The notes beneath the pieces are model-generated. The model did not search any database. It was not told where the DNA came from and saw nothing but the letters and a program-made list of their open reading frames with translations. 33,616 bases of DNA. Source: Bacteroidaceae bacterium. Lineage in GTDB: Bacteria > Bacteroidota > Bacteroidia > Bacteroidales > Bacteroidaceae. Of the stretch, positions 2,785-33,616 are shown in pieces. The position numbers were made by a program, and so were the translations under genes. Position 1 is the first letter of the stretch. Every line of letters starts with the position of its first letter. The stretch spans positions 1-33,616 of the forward strand of contig JAKSIZ010000029.1 in the NCBI GenBank assembly GCA_024398515.1. The letters are read 5' to 3'.

Positions 2785-2847
2785 AACATTGCTGCAATGT
2801 TGGACCGAACATTGCTACAATGTTGACTCGAACATTGCTGCAATGTT
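2785..2847. repeat. Three-palindrome array, family A, copy 1
   Basis: Three 17-bp palindromes start at 2785, 2808 and 2831, an exact 23-bp period with 6-bp spacers. Units are AACATTGCTGCAATGTT, AACATTGCTACAATGTT and AACATTGCTGCAATGTT. They are preceded at 2765-2779 by TTGAACGCTTAACTC, which recurs in inverted orientation beside copy 2 near 8922-8936. The array lies between nth and prmA. It could act as a hairpin series in RNA or a set of protein sites on DNA; there is no T-run that would make it a standard terminator. Confidence 0.9.
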
Positions 2848-2928
2848 TGAAGCAGTATAAGGCTCGATCTGAAAAATTAATAAACACGACTTGAAAAAGT
2901 ATAAAGCACGACTTGAAGAATGATATGC
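2841..2928. repeat. 22-bp imperfect tandem repeat running into the prmA start
   Basis: Four imperfect 22-bp units at 2841-2862, 2863-2884, 2885-2906 and 2907-2928. The last two are clearest: both begin CACGACTTGAA and continue with an A-rich tail. The final unit contains the prmA start codon (ATG 2925) and overlaps in position the alternative TTG start at 2913. The first unit overlaps the last palindrome of the adjacent array. Confidence 0.65.
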
Positions 2929-8753: not shown

Positions 8754-8830
8754 GAAAAAATAAAGTTTTTTACTTTAATTATTGAGATGCAACGTTACTT
8801 CGACGATAGTTGCACGTTATAATATTCAAA

Positions 8831-8936
8831 GTTGAACGTTAAAGTGTAAAAAACATTGCTGCAATGTTCGGCTCAACATTGGAGCAATGTTAGAGTCAAC
8901 ATTGCAGCAATGTTTGACAGAGTTAAGCGTTCAACT
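8831..8936. repeat. Three-palindrome array, family A, copy 2, with inverted arms
   Basis: Three 17-bp palindromes at 8852, 8875 and 8898 (AACATTGCTGCAATGTT, AACATTGGAGCAATGTT, AACATTGCAGCAATGTT), again exactly 23 bp apart. Outer arms GTTGAACGTTAA (8831) and TTAAGCGTTCAAC (8924-8936) are inverted copies of each other. The right arm matches, in reverse complement, the left flank of the copy at 2765-2847, so the two copies are in opposite orientation. It sits between divergent genes, which argues against a simple terminator role. No gene is seen in the rest of 8754-9022. Confidence 0.9.
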
Positions 8937-9022
8937 TTCCAAAGTCATTCGGAGGAGTAAAGCAAAGCATAGCATGAATTTGCAGTAAACATACAAATAA
9001 TCTCATTTTTTATGGGCATTTA

Positions 9023-17610: not shown

Positions 17611-17673
17611 AAAACTGTAGCAGTTTTCAAGTCAAAACTGCTACAGTTTTCACATCGAAACTGCTACAGTTTT
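17611..17673. repeat. Three-palindrome array, family B, copy 1
   Basis: Palindromes start at 17611, 17634 and 17657 (AAAACTGTAGCAGTTTT, AAAACTGCTACAGTTTT, GAAACTGCTACAGTTTT) with an exact 23-bp period. The left flank CGACCCTTATACTCCGAAA (17592 onward) resembles that of copy 2 (CGACCTTTATATTCGGAAA). It lies 28 bp after the stop of the 1325-aa protein gene. Short T-runs follow each unit, so transcription termination is one possible role. Confidence 0.9.
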
Positions 17674-18265: not shown

Positions 18266-18344
18266 GGTTGAAGGTTGAAGGTTTTAGGTTGTAGGTTAAT
18301 CCCCAATCCAAAAACCGATAATCCATAACCAACAACCCACAACC
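18266..18344. repeat. 7-bp GGTTGnA run with inverted partner
   Basis: Five heptamers (GGTTGAA, GGTTGAA, GGTTTTA, GGTTGTA, GGTTAAT) at 18266-18300 are followed at about 18326-18344 by the complementary pattern TAACC, AACAACC, CACAACC. The two arms could form a hairpin. The same heptamer occurs at 25439-25473. Confidence 0.75.
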
Positions 18345-18439
18345 AAATATCATTTTTTATGGCCAAAGGCCACATTTTTTACCGTAAGGTATTTTTATCT
18401 ATTATAATAGCACGCGAAAAGTGCGCTTAATTCAATCGA

Positions 18440-18505
18440 ATTAAATAGACAATTTGCAGCAATTAAATAGACAACTTCCAGCATTTATATTGACAACTCA
18501 ATGCC
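18440..18505. repeat. Three 22-bp tandem repeats upstream of a promoter
   Basis: Units at 18440, 18462 and 18484. The first two differ at two positions (both begin ATTAAATAGACAA and end CAGCA); the third is more diverged (TTTATATTGACAACTC). The block ends about 50 bp before the -33 box of the LRR gene promoter, a position suitable for regulator binding. Confidence 0.65.
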
Positions 18506-18964: not shown

Positions 18965-20779
18965 ATGAAAAAGATTAATCTTTTCTTTATGCTCTGCTTA
19001 TTCTGCCTAATAAGCATAGGAGCAAGCGCTATTCCAAACAACACTATTTATTACACATCATCGGATGGCAATGTTGTATATCCTAACTATAGTAATGCAT
19101 TCGGCAGTGCGACTATCGTAAGTAACGAATACTCAAATGGTCAGGGAATAATAACATTCGACAGAAATTTGACTTCGATTGGCGATATTGCTTTTTGTAT
19201 ATGTGATCACTTGACAAGTGTAACAATCCCTAATTCCGTGACTGAGATTGGAAAATATGCTTTTGAGCAATGTTCAGGTTTGACAAGTGTGACAATCGGA
19301 AATTCCGTGACTTCGATTGGATATTATGCTTTTGAAGGCTGTAAAGGCTTGACAAGTGTTGAAATCCCTAATTCCGTGACTTCGATTGGAGAACGGGCTT
19401 TTTCTGGCTGTTCAGGCTTGACAAGTTTGACAATAGGAAATTCAGTGACTTCGATTGGAGAGGGTGCTTTTTATGAATGTTCCGGCTTGACAAGTGTGAC
19501 AATTTCAAATTCCGTCGATTCGATTGGTAATTATGCTTTTTATAATTGTTTAGGTTTGACAAGTCTTACAATCCCTAATTCCGTGACTTCGATTGGAGAT
19601 TATGCTTTTGGTTGGTGTCGAGGCTTGACAAGTGTGACAATCGGAAATTCCGTGACTGAGATTGGAAGTTCTGCTTTTGAAGGCTGTTTCTGCTTGACAA
19701 GTGTGACAATCGGAAATTCCGTGACTTCGATTGGAAGTTCTGCTTTTCGCTACTGTTCTGGCTTGACAAGTGTGACAATCCCTAATTCCGTGACTTCGAT
19801 TGGCAGTTATGCTTTTGAAGGCCCTTCACGCTTGACAAGTGTTTATGTCGGATGGAATAATGCTGATAGAATACCAGTTCTTACTTCTTGGGATTTCCCT
19901 TATTCAACCTGCGATTTGTATGTACCAACAGGGACAAAGGCAATCTATCAAGAGAAGGATTATTGGAACTCATTCAAGAATATTTATGAAAATGAGTTCG
20001 AGTCAGTATTACTTGGTGATGCCAATGATGATGGTAGTGTGGATGTAAGTGACATTACATCTATTGCAACTTACATTTTGAACGGAAAAGCAACTCCTTG
20101 GAATGAAAAGAATGCCGATGTAAATGGTGACGGTGTTATCGACGTGAGCGACATAACTGGCGTTGCAAGCATAATTCTAGGGAAAAAGTCACTCTGTCCC
20201 GATGACCATCACCCTCATGCCATTGACATGGGTTTGCCGAGTGGCACAAAGTGGTGCTGCTGCAACGTAGGCGCAACAACTCCTGAAGGCTATGGCGGCT
20301 ATTATGCCTGGGGCGAGACAAGCGAGAAGAGTGTGTATGATTTGCAAACATACGCTTATTGGAGAGATCAAAATGAAAATGGATTTGTTGACGATGGAGA
20401 TTGGGCAAACATCGGCACAGACATTGCTGGCACTCAATACGACGTTGCCCATGTCAGCATGGGTGGTTCATGGCGCATGCCAAGCCATGTGCAACAAATG
20501 GAACTTGTGAACAATTGTATCGGAACGTGGACTACGCAAGATGGCGTGAACGGCATATCAGTGATAGGTAAGAACGGAGGTCAGATATTCCTTCCTGCTG
20601 CAGGCTACCGTCAAAATGAATGGCTCGGAGATGTTGGTGTTTACAGTCTATACTGGTCGAGTTCACTCGATCCGCGCTACTACAGCATCCCGCACGTCCT
20701 GTATTTCTATTCTGGCTTTTGGGGGTGGGACTACTTCGAACGCCTCGTTGGTCTTTCCGTACGAGCCGTTTGCCCGTAG
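18965..20779 (+). CDS. BspA-like leucine-rich-repeat protein with dockerin and Fib_succ-type C-terminal domain
   Basis: A 604-aa secreted protein. A signal peptide (~1-22, MKKINLFFMLCLFCLISIGA then SA) precedes nine full 23-residue LRR_5/BspA repeats (~90-298) of the type LTSVTIPNSVTSIGxxAFxxCSG, with IPNS and IGNS variants intermixed. A type I dockerin-like pair follows (~349-405: DANDDGSVDVSDI, then DVNGDGVIDVSDI), with Asp/Asn positions for calcium. The last ~195 residues (MGLPSGTKWCCCNVGATTPE, FLPAAGYR, YWSSS, VRAVCP) match the Fibrobacter succinogenes major paralogous domain. Such proteins typically mediate surface binding. The repeats are also near-identical at DNA level (69-bp period), which allows expansion or contraction. 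It has a strong promoter and a long structured leader. Confidence 0.9.
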   Translation: MKKINLFFMLCLFCLISIGASAIPNNTIYYTSSDGNVVYPNYSNAFGSATIVSNEYSNGQGIITFDRNLTSIGDIAFCICDHLTSVTIPNSVTEIGKYAFEQCSGLTSVTIGNSVTSIGYYAFEGCKGLTSVEIPNSVTSIGERAFSGCSGLTSLTIGNSVTSIGEGAFYECSGLTSVTISNSVDSIGNYAFYNCLGLTSLTIPNSVTSIGDYAFGWCRGLTSVTIGNSVTEIGSSAFEGCFCLTSVTIGNSVTSIGSSAFRYCSGLTSVTIPNSVTSIGSYAFEGPSRLTSVYVGWNNADRIPVLTSWDFPYSTCDLYVPTGTKAIYQEKDYWNSFKNIYENEFESVLLGDANDDGSVDVSDITSIATYILNGKATPWNEKNADVNGDGVIDVSDITGVASIILGKKSLCPDDHHPHAIDMGLPSGTKWCCCNVGATTPEGYGGYYAWGETSEKSVYDLQTYAYWRDQNENGFVDDGDWANIGTDIAGTQYDVAHVSMGGSWRMPSHVQQMELVNNCIGTWTTQDGVNGISVIGKNGGQIFLPAAGYRQNEWLGDVGVYSLYWSSSLDPRYYSIPHVLYFYSGFWGWDYFERLVGLSVRAVCP

Positions 20780-20880: not shown

Positions 20881-20969
20881 AAAAGTGAAACTTTCGAATG
20901 TTAAAGTTTTGATTATTTGTATGCGCGCTCACATACGCGCGTAATATTAATAAGGTGTAGTTTACGGTT
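20881..20969 (+). repeat. Dispersed ~88-bp intergenic repeat, copy 1
   Basis: From AAAAGTGAAACTTT to TAGTTTACGGTT. The reverse complement of 32822-32909 matches over nearly the whole length. The core GCGCGC (20923-20928) and CGCGCG (20936-20941) can form a hairpin and is alternating purine-pyrimidine. The remaining 20780-20880 holds no recognised gene. Confidence 0.8.
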
Positions 20970-25438: not shown

Positions 25439-25473
25439 GGTTGTAGGTTATAGGTTGTTGGTTGTAGGTTGCC
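25439..25473. repeat. Five 7-bp repeats (GGTTGTA type)
   Basis: GGTTGTA, GGTTATA, GGTTGTT, GGTTGTA, GGTTGCC at 25439-25473, beginning 4 bp after the stop of the membrane polyferredoxin gene and within the 100-bp gap before the aldo/keto reductase. Two CGA octamers (25480-25495) follow. Confidence 0.8.
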
Positions 25474-26896: not shown

Positions 26897-26974
26897 CTGA
26901 AAGGAAGTGCTCAATGCGTTGGCTTTCAGGCTATGAACGCAATGCTTCTCAAGATCGACCTTTATATTCGGAAA

Positions 26975-27037
26975 TAAACTGCTGCAGTTTCTATGTGAAA
27001 ACTGTAGCAGTTTTCGATTGAATACTGCTACAGTTTT
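26975..27037. repeat. Three-palindrome array, family B, copy 2
   Basis: Palindromes at 26975, 26998 and 27021 (TAAACTGCTGCAGTTTC, AAAACTGTAGCAGTTTT, AATACTGCTACAGTTTT), again an exact 23-bp period. It lies between the ends of two convergent genes (26896 and 27079), and seven or more T residues follow the last unit, so it could terminate the rightward transcript. The flank CGACCTTTATATTCGGAAA (26956) matches the array near 17592. Confidence 0.9.
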
Positions 27038-32821: not shown

Positions 32822-32909
32822 AACCGCAAACTACACCTTATTAATAAACGCGCGTGCGGGCGCGCGCATACAAATAATCAAAACTTTTACACTCAAAAGT
32901 TTCACTTTT
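32822..32909 (-). repeat. Dispersed ~88-bp intergenic repeat, copy 2 (inverted)
   Basis: The reverse complement matches copy 1 at 20881-20969, including AAAAGTGAAAC, GTTTTGATTATTTGTATGCG and ATTAATAAGGTGTAGTTT. The GCGCGC core is longer here. It ends at the -33 region of the promoter for the second LRR gene. Confidence 0.8.
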
Positions 32910-33099: not shown

Positions 33100-33616
33100 A
33101 TGAAAAAACTGATTTTTACATTTTTCGCAGCCCTGTGCTGCATGAGCGGATTTGCCAATGGAATAAAGATTGACAATATCTATTACTTCCTTTACAATAC
33201 AGACAAGACGGCTACAGTCACTTATACTGGTGCTACTTTTAAAGAAGAGTCTGAATATACTGGTTCAATCAACATACCATCTACAGTCACTTATAACAAT
33301 CAGGTCTATTCGGTTACAAGAATTATAGGTTATGCATTCTAAGGTTGTTCTGGCTTGACTTCAATAACCATTCCAAGCGGTGTCACGAGTATTGGAGAGA
33401 GAGCATTCCAAGGCTGTTCCGGCTTGACATCAATAGCCATTCCAAACGGTGTCACGAGTATTGGAGAATATGCATTCTATGGTTGTTCCTGCTTGACTTC
33501 AATAACCATTCCAAACGGTGTCACGAGCATTGGAGAACATGCATTCTATGGCTGTTCTGCTTTGACTTCAATAACCATTCCAAGCGGTGTCACGAGTATT
33601 GGAGAGCATGCCTTCG
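33100..33616 (+). pseudogene. BspA-like LRR protein, interrupted by in-frame TAA and cut by the window end
   Basis: From ATG 33100: signal peptide (~1-19, MKKLIFTFFAALCCMSGFA), an N-terminal region (IYYFLYNTDKTATVTYTGAT), then the first repeat IIGYAF followed by TAA at 33340-33342. In the same frame translation continues [18 protein letters not shown], then further 23-residue repeats to the window end. Equivalent codons in the following repeats are TAT (Tyr) or CAA (Gln), so one base change (e.g. TAT to TAA) accounts for the stop. An in-frame ATG at 33043 is less likely to be the start. The 3' end lies beyond the window. It could be a real pseudogene, a sequencing error, or an assembly error in repeats. 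Confidence 0.85.

Follow-up and report, generated by a model that had tools for sequence, protein, structure and literature searches.

Several described repeat systems invite comparison with the arrays reported here. The BrickBuilt MITE of P. gingivalis is built from a 23-nt tandem unit present 1 to 22.8 times, with 19 copies in strain ATCC 33277; its core is bordered by a leader and a tail of up to 285 and 318 nt, with terminal inverted repeats like those of IS5-family elements (PMC4596501). For the REP/BIME elements, BIME-2 has been found to bind gyrase, inter-REP DNA of another BIME type to interact with IHF, and REPs to interact with Pol I (PMC2817692).

We describe arrays of three 17-bp palindromes at a 23-bp period, belonging to family A (AACATTG-N3-CAATGTT), family B (AAAACTG arms) and a third family, in a draft genome of the Bacteroidaceae. 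Like BrickBuilt, they occur in the Bacteroidales, have a 23-nt period, are intergenic and have a flanked core, the BrickBuilt leader and tail having small inverted ends (PMC4596501); they are unlike it in being present in about 150 copies, in having nearly always three palindromic units, in falling into several arm types and in carrying 22-bp-periodic flanks. BrickBuilt is characterised by 23-nt repeats whose number, from leader to tail, differs between copies; no such variation was seen here, all 32 arrays on the contigs read whole being three-unit. With REP/BIME elements the arrays share short palindromes, high copy number and species specificity; they differ (PMC2817692, PMC3733652) in that neither a RAYT association nor a terminal GTAG/CGTC tag was found and in having a near-fixed number and period of units. 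Two groups of palindromes in other Prevotella-type genomes are likewise tandem, about 17 bp long and about two helical turns apart, namely those of Prevotella sp. MA2016 (G002; 22 bp) and the AAAGCTCTTAAGCTTT palindromes of two further genomes (G169 and G133; 22–23 bp); unlike the arrays described here, they were found at few loci and with variable unit number (2 to 4 in the former; about 4 to 6, by eye, in the latter). BOX and ERIC elements are also modular, dispersed intergenic repeats, and neither is known to have a core of three palindromic units at 23 bp.

Materials and methods

The window is the whole stretch of DNA analysed, 33,616 nt, and corresponds to contig C22 in a draft assembly that totals 2,652,605 bases (90 contigs, 87.78% complete). 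Palindrome arrays of any sequence were scanned for at 6 of 7 arm pairs and periods of 18–34 bp in 76 stretches (546,006 bases) picked around A and B matches. Because stretches picked in this way favour three-unit arrays, contigs C34 and C23 and the first 138.8 kb of C12 were read end to end (385 kb together; picked for length, some of their arrays being known beforehand). Copy numbers were taken from pattern counts, since the DNA searches scored 40 of 87 and 40 of 99 candidates. Gap classes rest on mechanical open reading frames (ORFs) of at least 100 aa. Model R1 was built from families A and B and the family of a relative (G001, below).

Geometry and copy number

The preliminary description located 17-bp units at a 23-bp period at 17611, 17634 and 17657 and again at 26975, 26998 and 27021; positions and geometry are as it gave them (Table 1). 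The first of these copies is near-perfect (AAAACTG-TAG-CAGTTTT, AAAACTG-CTA-CAGTTTT, GAAACTG-CTA-CAGTTTT), the second worn (TAAACTG-CTG-CAGTTTC, AAAACTG-TAG-CAGTTTT, AATACTG-CTA-CAGTTTT).

Table 1 Arrays and flanking repeats in the window. Coordinates are those of the window; a point in the strand column is given as recorded.
Feature	Coordinates	Strand	Remarks
Family A array (AACATTG-N3-CAATGTT x3, 23 bp)	2785..2847	.	Palindrome-array scan and R1 match
Right flank of 2785 array, degenerate 22-bp repeats	2848..2925	.	3.2 copies at 2856-2925 (TRF)
Left flank of 8852 array	8786..8851	.	66 nt = flank-model length; outer end not sharp; inverted repeat covers 8828 onward
Family A array, clear inverted flanks on both sides	8852..8914	.	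Inverted repeat 8828-8881 / 8885-8938; scan; R1 match
Right flank of 8852 array, inverted relative to left	8915..8980	.	66 nt; outer end not sharp
Left flank of 17611 array, contains GACGACCCTTATACTCCGAAAA	17545..17610	.	Outer end not sharp; repeat D4 from 17585
Family B array, three 17-bp palindromes, 23-bp period	17611..17673	.	R1 match 74.9 bits (R1 built from such arrays)
Left flank of 26975 array	26909..26974	.	Outer end not sharp; repeat D4 from 26949
Family B array, worn, three units at 23 bp	26975..27037	.	R1 match 64.1 bits

The scan of 546,006 bases returned 88 arrays of at least three units, every one of exactly three units at 23 bp, together with two pairs of similar units, one at 23 bp and one at 18 bp; a single mononucleotide shuffle of the same bases yielded no array of three. 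When the scan was relaxed to 5 of 7 pairs, 87 of the 23-bp triples were kept (47 B and 40 A), one two-unit B array was listed (L140), and chance-like matches appeared at other periods, including one triple at 21 bp and one at 52 bp. The B array of L131 was lost from the laxer scan because a stretch of its flank passes as a weak fourth unit, and it enters the flank-alignment, placement and core counts one unit out of register. Arrangements of two or four units, or at other periods, are thus far from being as common as three at 23 bp, with 88 triples against one two-unit array of A/B type. On the contigs read whole, all 32 arrays followed the same rule once 15 two-unit matches of unrelated sequence, mostly AT-rich and at 18–30 bp, had been set aside as chance; 28 of them belong to A or B and four to the third family, AACATTC-N3-GAATGTT, which the preliminary description had missed. 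Its proposal of one geometry carried by different sequences is borne out, since three families occur here and the relative has a fourth. Its three-unit rule, near-fixed in this genome, is not universal, the relative having seven arrays with three units and four with two.

The exact family B unit, AAACTGNNNCAGTTT, occurs 219 times in the 2.65-Mb genome against no occurrence of the reversed control pattern, so that family B is not a product of chance. With up to two mismatches, 151 two-unit B matches were counted, corresponding at two per array to about 75 arrays, and 144 two-unit A matches (over 28 arm bases), corresponding to about 72; A and B together amount to about 150 copies in the genome, a count that covers A and B copies within two mismatches.

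Arms, loops and flanks

Selection on spacing rather than sequence, as first suggested, finds no support in the alignments, in which the A arms are the most invariant part: none of 714 A arm bases is substituted on the whole-read contigs, 142 of the 144 two-unit A matches are perfect (two mismatches in 28 arm bases being permitted), and all 120 A units in the best-scoring 40 arrays have identical arms. Loops and spacers are variable in both families. Among the same best-scoring 40 arrays, 36 of the 63-bp A cores are distinct; 35 of 48 B cores are distinct, one core being common to nine B arrays. The B arms vary, at 12 of 462 bases on the whole-read contigs. The A loop is CTG or CAG in 66 of 80 outer units and in 9 of 40 middle units (Fisher p 2e-10).

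No compensatory pair change was present among the 120 A units of the best-scoring 40 arrays; it is therefore the sequence that is kept, and not pairing alone. Selection on structure only would permit such changes, and A shows none. What is kept across families is AA---T(G/C)---(C/G)A---TT and the symmetry. Judged from the aligned units, sequence is conserved within a family, and symmetry and period are conserved between families, a pattern such as would be expected of symmetric protein recognition with altered specificity.

The B flanks had been taken to differ from those of family A, and both families proved to have the same kind of flank: weaker, inverted, 22-bp-periodic repeats on both sides of the array, fading by about 75–100 bp. 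When each flank is compared with itself, the likeness is greatest at lag 22 (0.380 and 0.363 for A, 0.321 and 0.326 for B); the remaining lags between 10 and 39 give 0.22–0.31. Likeness at this lag is slightly higher within than between elements (0.380 vs 0.355; 0.328 vs 0.311), which fits local duplication too. A long stem maintained by pairing was considered and is not clear: in just 4 of 20 bins did left-right complementarity within an element surpass that found between different elements.

A 66-nt flank model, trained on the same flanks, exceeded a score of 6 at 161 of 176 array edges and a score of 16, the highest reached in the shuffle, at 152 of 176 (A, 79/80; B, 73/96; both edges in 66 of 88 arrays). 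Off the arrays, 67 matches above 6 were obtained on two strands, the shuffle giving 17 on one strand; two of these, at the edges of the two-unit L140 array, scored 37.7 and 32.9, and all others at most 15.8. With this model, trained as stated, no strong flank-only site was present in 546 kb. One flank is replaced near the array edge, according to a simple pattern, by a second dispersed repeat (AGTCGCTGCGCTT, AGTCGCTGCGCTTNGTGATCATCGCG and variants) in 7 of 48 B arrays (L093, L099, L106, L126, L127, L132, L142).

Other repeats were noted in the window. A dispersed inverted repeat with TATTAATAAGGTGTAGTTTACGGTT lies in two intergenic gaps (20881–20969 and 32822–32909; 62 nt 89% and 25 nt 96% complementary); 69-bp repeats are found at 19210–19842, inside a BspA-type leucine-rich repeat protein with a dockerin domain, and at 33332–33615; about three direct 22-bp repeats (AATTAAATAGACAACTTCCAGC) precede the following ORFs at 18431–18498; heptamers resembling GGTTGTA/GGTTGAA, and their inverse, are repeated between ORFs at 18266–18297, 18327–18346 and 25439–25471.

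Placement on the chromosome

Location at the 3' ends of genes, noted for the two B arrays of the window, is not general. The 88 arrays are mostly intergenic: the gap is codirectional for 47 of them, divergent for 18 and convergent for 12, while 7 run into a predicted ORF and 4 stand at the end of a stretch. No clear tie of array orientation to gene strand or GC skew was seen: orientation is split 20 to 20 (A) and 24 to 24 (B) relative to the net coding strand and, in raw counts, 22 to 18 (A) and 29 to 19 (B) relative to GC skew. Nor was there order in the succession of A and B along contigs, with 31 same and 29 different neighbours in 103 typed positions (p 0.42). A recurrent neighbour gene was sought by sequence comparison among the 172 ORFs adjoining the 88 arrays; one cluster of 15 and eight pairs recurred, and a transposase may be among them.

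Distances between arrays are regular. The 32 arrays of all three families on the three contigs define 29 distances with a minimum of 4,706 bp, a median of 8,793 bp and a mean of 11.2 kb; 12 of the 29 fall between 7.2 and 8.9 kb, and the overall CV of 0.55 is raised by two distances near 30 kb (28.0 and 30.5), inside which no additional array could be seen. Placing arrays at random in predicted intergenic gaps of 150 bp or more, an approximate null since just 26 of the 32 arrays lie within such gaps by mechanical ORFs, gave an expectation of 8.1 distances below 4.5 kb against 0 observed; of 20,000 simulations, 0 matched the minimum distance and 0.14% matched the CV, and uniform placement agrees. 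On C34 alone the CV is 0.21, matched in 0 of 20,000 simulations. A partial list of 103 arrays gave 60 distances with a minimum of 5.1 kb. Judged from three contigs of a draft assembly and the 32 arrays that they carry, the arrays are over-dispersed, more even than chance.

Relatives and distribution

By one protein, the nearest of 80 loci belongs to Prevotellaceae bacterium S38M_St_55 (L010; 80% identity), in a search that may have omitted entries from this genome itself or from one very close to it. In this relative, G001, a family AAAGTTG-N3-CAACTTT was recognised at 13 of the 16 places found, always at 23 bp (seven arrays of three units, four of two, two cut by contig ends; no array recognised at the other three places). 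No perfect unit of this family was seen in the stretches of the present genome, and no perfect A, B or third-family unit in 21 G001 loci picked for AAAGTTG-type arrays or Y1 genes. Prevotella sp. MA2016 has CAAATTC-type palindromes at 22 bp, in 3, 3, 2 and 4 units. As an observation apart, a Y1 transposase gene of G001 (L206, 1044–2208) is surrounded by a REP-like set of palindromes, CAGGCATGAAATGCCTG and CAGCCATNNCATGGCTG.

B pairs were found in none of 39 other genomes, 23 of these congeners. Model R1, which misses the MA2016 family and could so miss other families, matched none of 59 other congeners when strict filters were applied and 89 candidates were scored in each genome. It matched 2 of 240 further genomes of the family (22 candidates scored in each; partly overlapping with the 59-congener set). 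These two are the congeners with tandem AAAGCTCTTAAGCTTT palindromes (L247, L250 and L252 of G169; L246 of G133). Array positions are shared with G001 in none of four comparable gaps, defined by a G001 array with a neighbour gene 75–80% identical to its counterpart here (L168, L183 and L190, with weaker or repeat-protein neighbours, set aside), and the corresponding gaps of the present genome contain no perfect unit, whatever the family. The arrays are lineage-restricted within the genomes searched; together with the unshared gaps, this restricted distribution indicates that they have spread or turned over within a lineage. With no R1 match in 59 congeners and no shared position in the four gaps, their role cannot be one needed by the genus.

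A phage or plasmid origin was considered and set aside: array DNA of family B matched nothing among phages or plasmids. Viral contigs yielded no match to the any-arm pattern, to A pairs or to G001-type pairs, and B pairs matched two IMG/VR contigs carrying the same lone AACTGCTACAGTT pair; AACTGCTACAGTT and its inverse, at a distance of 23 bp, closely precede a possible start codon (L243, 948–983; L244, 809–844), and were judged to be a separate operator-like site.

Discussion

With their near-fixed geometry, several sequence versions and even placement, the arrays look like a landing pad for a putative DNA-binding protein. Our preferred reading, which we consider plausible though somewhat short of probable, is that each array, specific to this lineage, offers three sites to a dimeric protein and helps to organise the chromosome; the protein, its dimeric state and the chromosomal role are what we infer from the features described above. 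The core would present three dyad-symmetric putative sites, that is six 7-bp half-sites in alternating orientation, 3 and 6 bp apart, each site being bound by a sequence-specific dimeric protein. Weaker 22-bp-periodic accessory sites over about 100 bp on either side could extend binding into an ordered complex along one side of the helix. Families would differ in the arm bases that set half-site specificity and retain symmetry and period. Arrays roughly 8–11 kb apart may then serve the whole chromosome, as domain boundary, anchoring or compaction points, rather than single genes. Selection on such chromosome-scale protein-binding arrays is favoured by arms that hardly vary although the loops next to them do, by the difference between middle and outer units, and by even spacing unrelated to gene orientation. 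Against this reading count the variation of the B arms (12/462 bases), the positions not shared with the relative, the slightly greater lag-22 likeness of flanks within elements, and the fact that target immunity can also give regular spacing.

That last point leads to the main alternative, a non-autonomous MITE-like element. A transposase would then bind the palindromes and flanks, and target immunity would keep copies at least about 5 kb apart, a bound copy repelling insertions nearby. Gain in a single lineage and a minimum distance fit a mobile element with immunity too, and the many copies within a single lineage (0/39 other genomes with B pairs, 0/59 other congeners with R1 matches), positions that differ from the relative in 4 of 4 gaps, inverted flanks and over-dispersion all agree with it. 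We regard it as possible but on the unlikely side; conservation peaks at the centre and fades outward without a sharp end, opposite to the pattern of usual transposon ends. The terminal inverted repeats with a sharp outer end that mark a MITE are accordingly not seen, the flanks being inverted but fading. Recent copies would moreover be expected to share loops and spacers, whereas here the arms are constant and loops and spacers vary, and worn A copies are few (2 of 144, within two mismatches). A neutral minisatellite, gaining and losing tandem palindromes by slippage like BrickBuilt of Porphyromonas gingivalis, would account for the variable-number tandem 22–23-bp palindromes of other Prevotella-type genomes and for the two-unit and three-unit arrays of the relative; the near-fixed unit number here (88 triples against one two-unit array; 32/32 on whole-read contigs) and the regular distances make this the hardest of the readings to credit.

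Two further readings start from the palindromes themselves. RNA hairpins, acting as bidirectional terminators or transcript stabilisers, are suggested by the foldability of each unit as a 7-bp stem with a 3-nt loop, by the whole-core energy of about -23 to -32 kcal/mol on average and by the T runs that end B units; yet one unit by itself folds weakly (about -3 kcal/mol), divergent gaps hold 18 of the 88 arrays, A has no compensatory change, a terminator scan passes over the window's two B arrays, which were the arrays scanned, and no Rfam match was obtained at gathering thresholds (window, L001, L009, L165, L257), so that this reading appears improbable. An intrinsic terminator, with its G+C-rich stem and T run at gene 3' ends, was recognised neither by placement nor by the terminator scan of those two arrays. 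Spread by a RAYT (REP-associated tyrosine transposase), as for REP/BIME elements, would suit short, mostly intergenic, lineage-specific palindromes in more than 100 copies; GTAG spans the loop of B units in one orientation, and Y1_Tnp genes are present in all three genomes searched. Here, however, the sole Y1_Tnp (PF01797) match is weak (28.4 bits) and has an in-frame TAG (L204; G000:C18:22396-22599), no array lies in its 3.2-kb locus or at five other Y1_Tnp loci (four in G001 and one in G002, 2.3–3.4 kb each), and by eye no GTAG or CGTC tag stands at the ends of units, which start AACATTG, AAAACTG or AACATTC. No RAYT gene standing between a pair of inverted, like REPs was found, and the terminal tag is missing; at 87.78% completeness the gene may be missing from the assembly, and we consider a RAYT origin very improbable.

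Returning to the chromosomal function that we would assign to the arrays, the 10-kb supercoil domain of E. coli is one of the nearest parallels. The gyrase binding of BIMEs is the other (PMC2817692). As far as titles and the beginnings of abstracts show, no description of such arrays was found in the literature. A more far-reaching form of the proposal, which we think rather unlikely, is that three or more parallel sets of three-dimer arrays, each with its own half-site code and set between genes at intervals of about 8 kb, would be read by paralogous proteins to set up chromosome domains, the code being species-specific and the geometry constant.

If the arrays are mobile, their positions would record naturally occurring target immunity on a scale of about 5 kb. 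If they are protein-bound, they would be sequence-coded, evenly spaced landmarks of the chromosome, in which recognition sequence and geometry have been separated by evolution.
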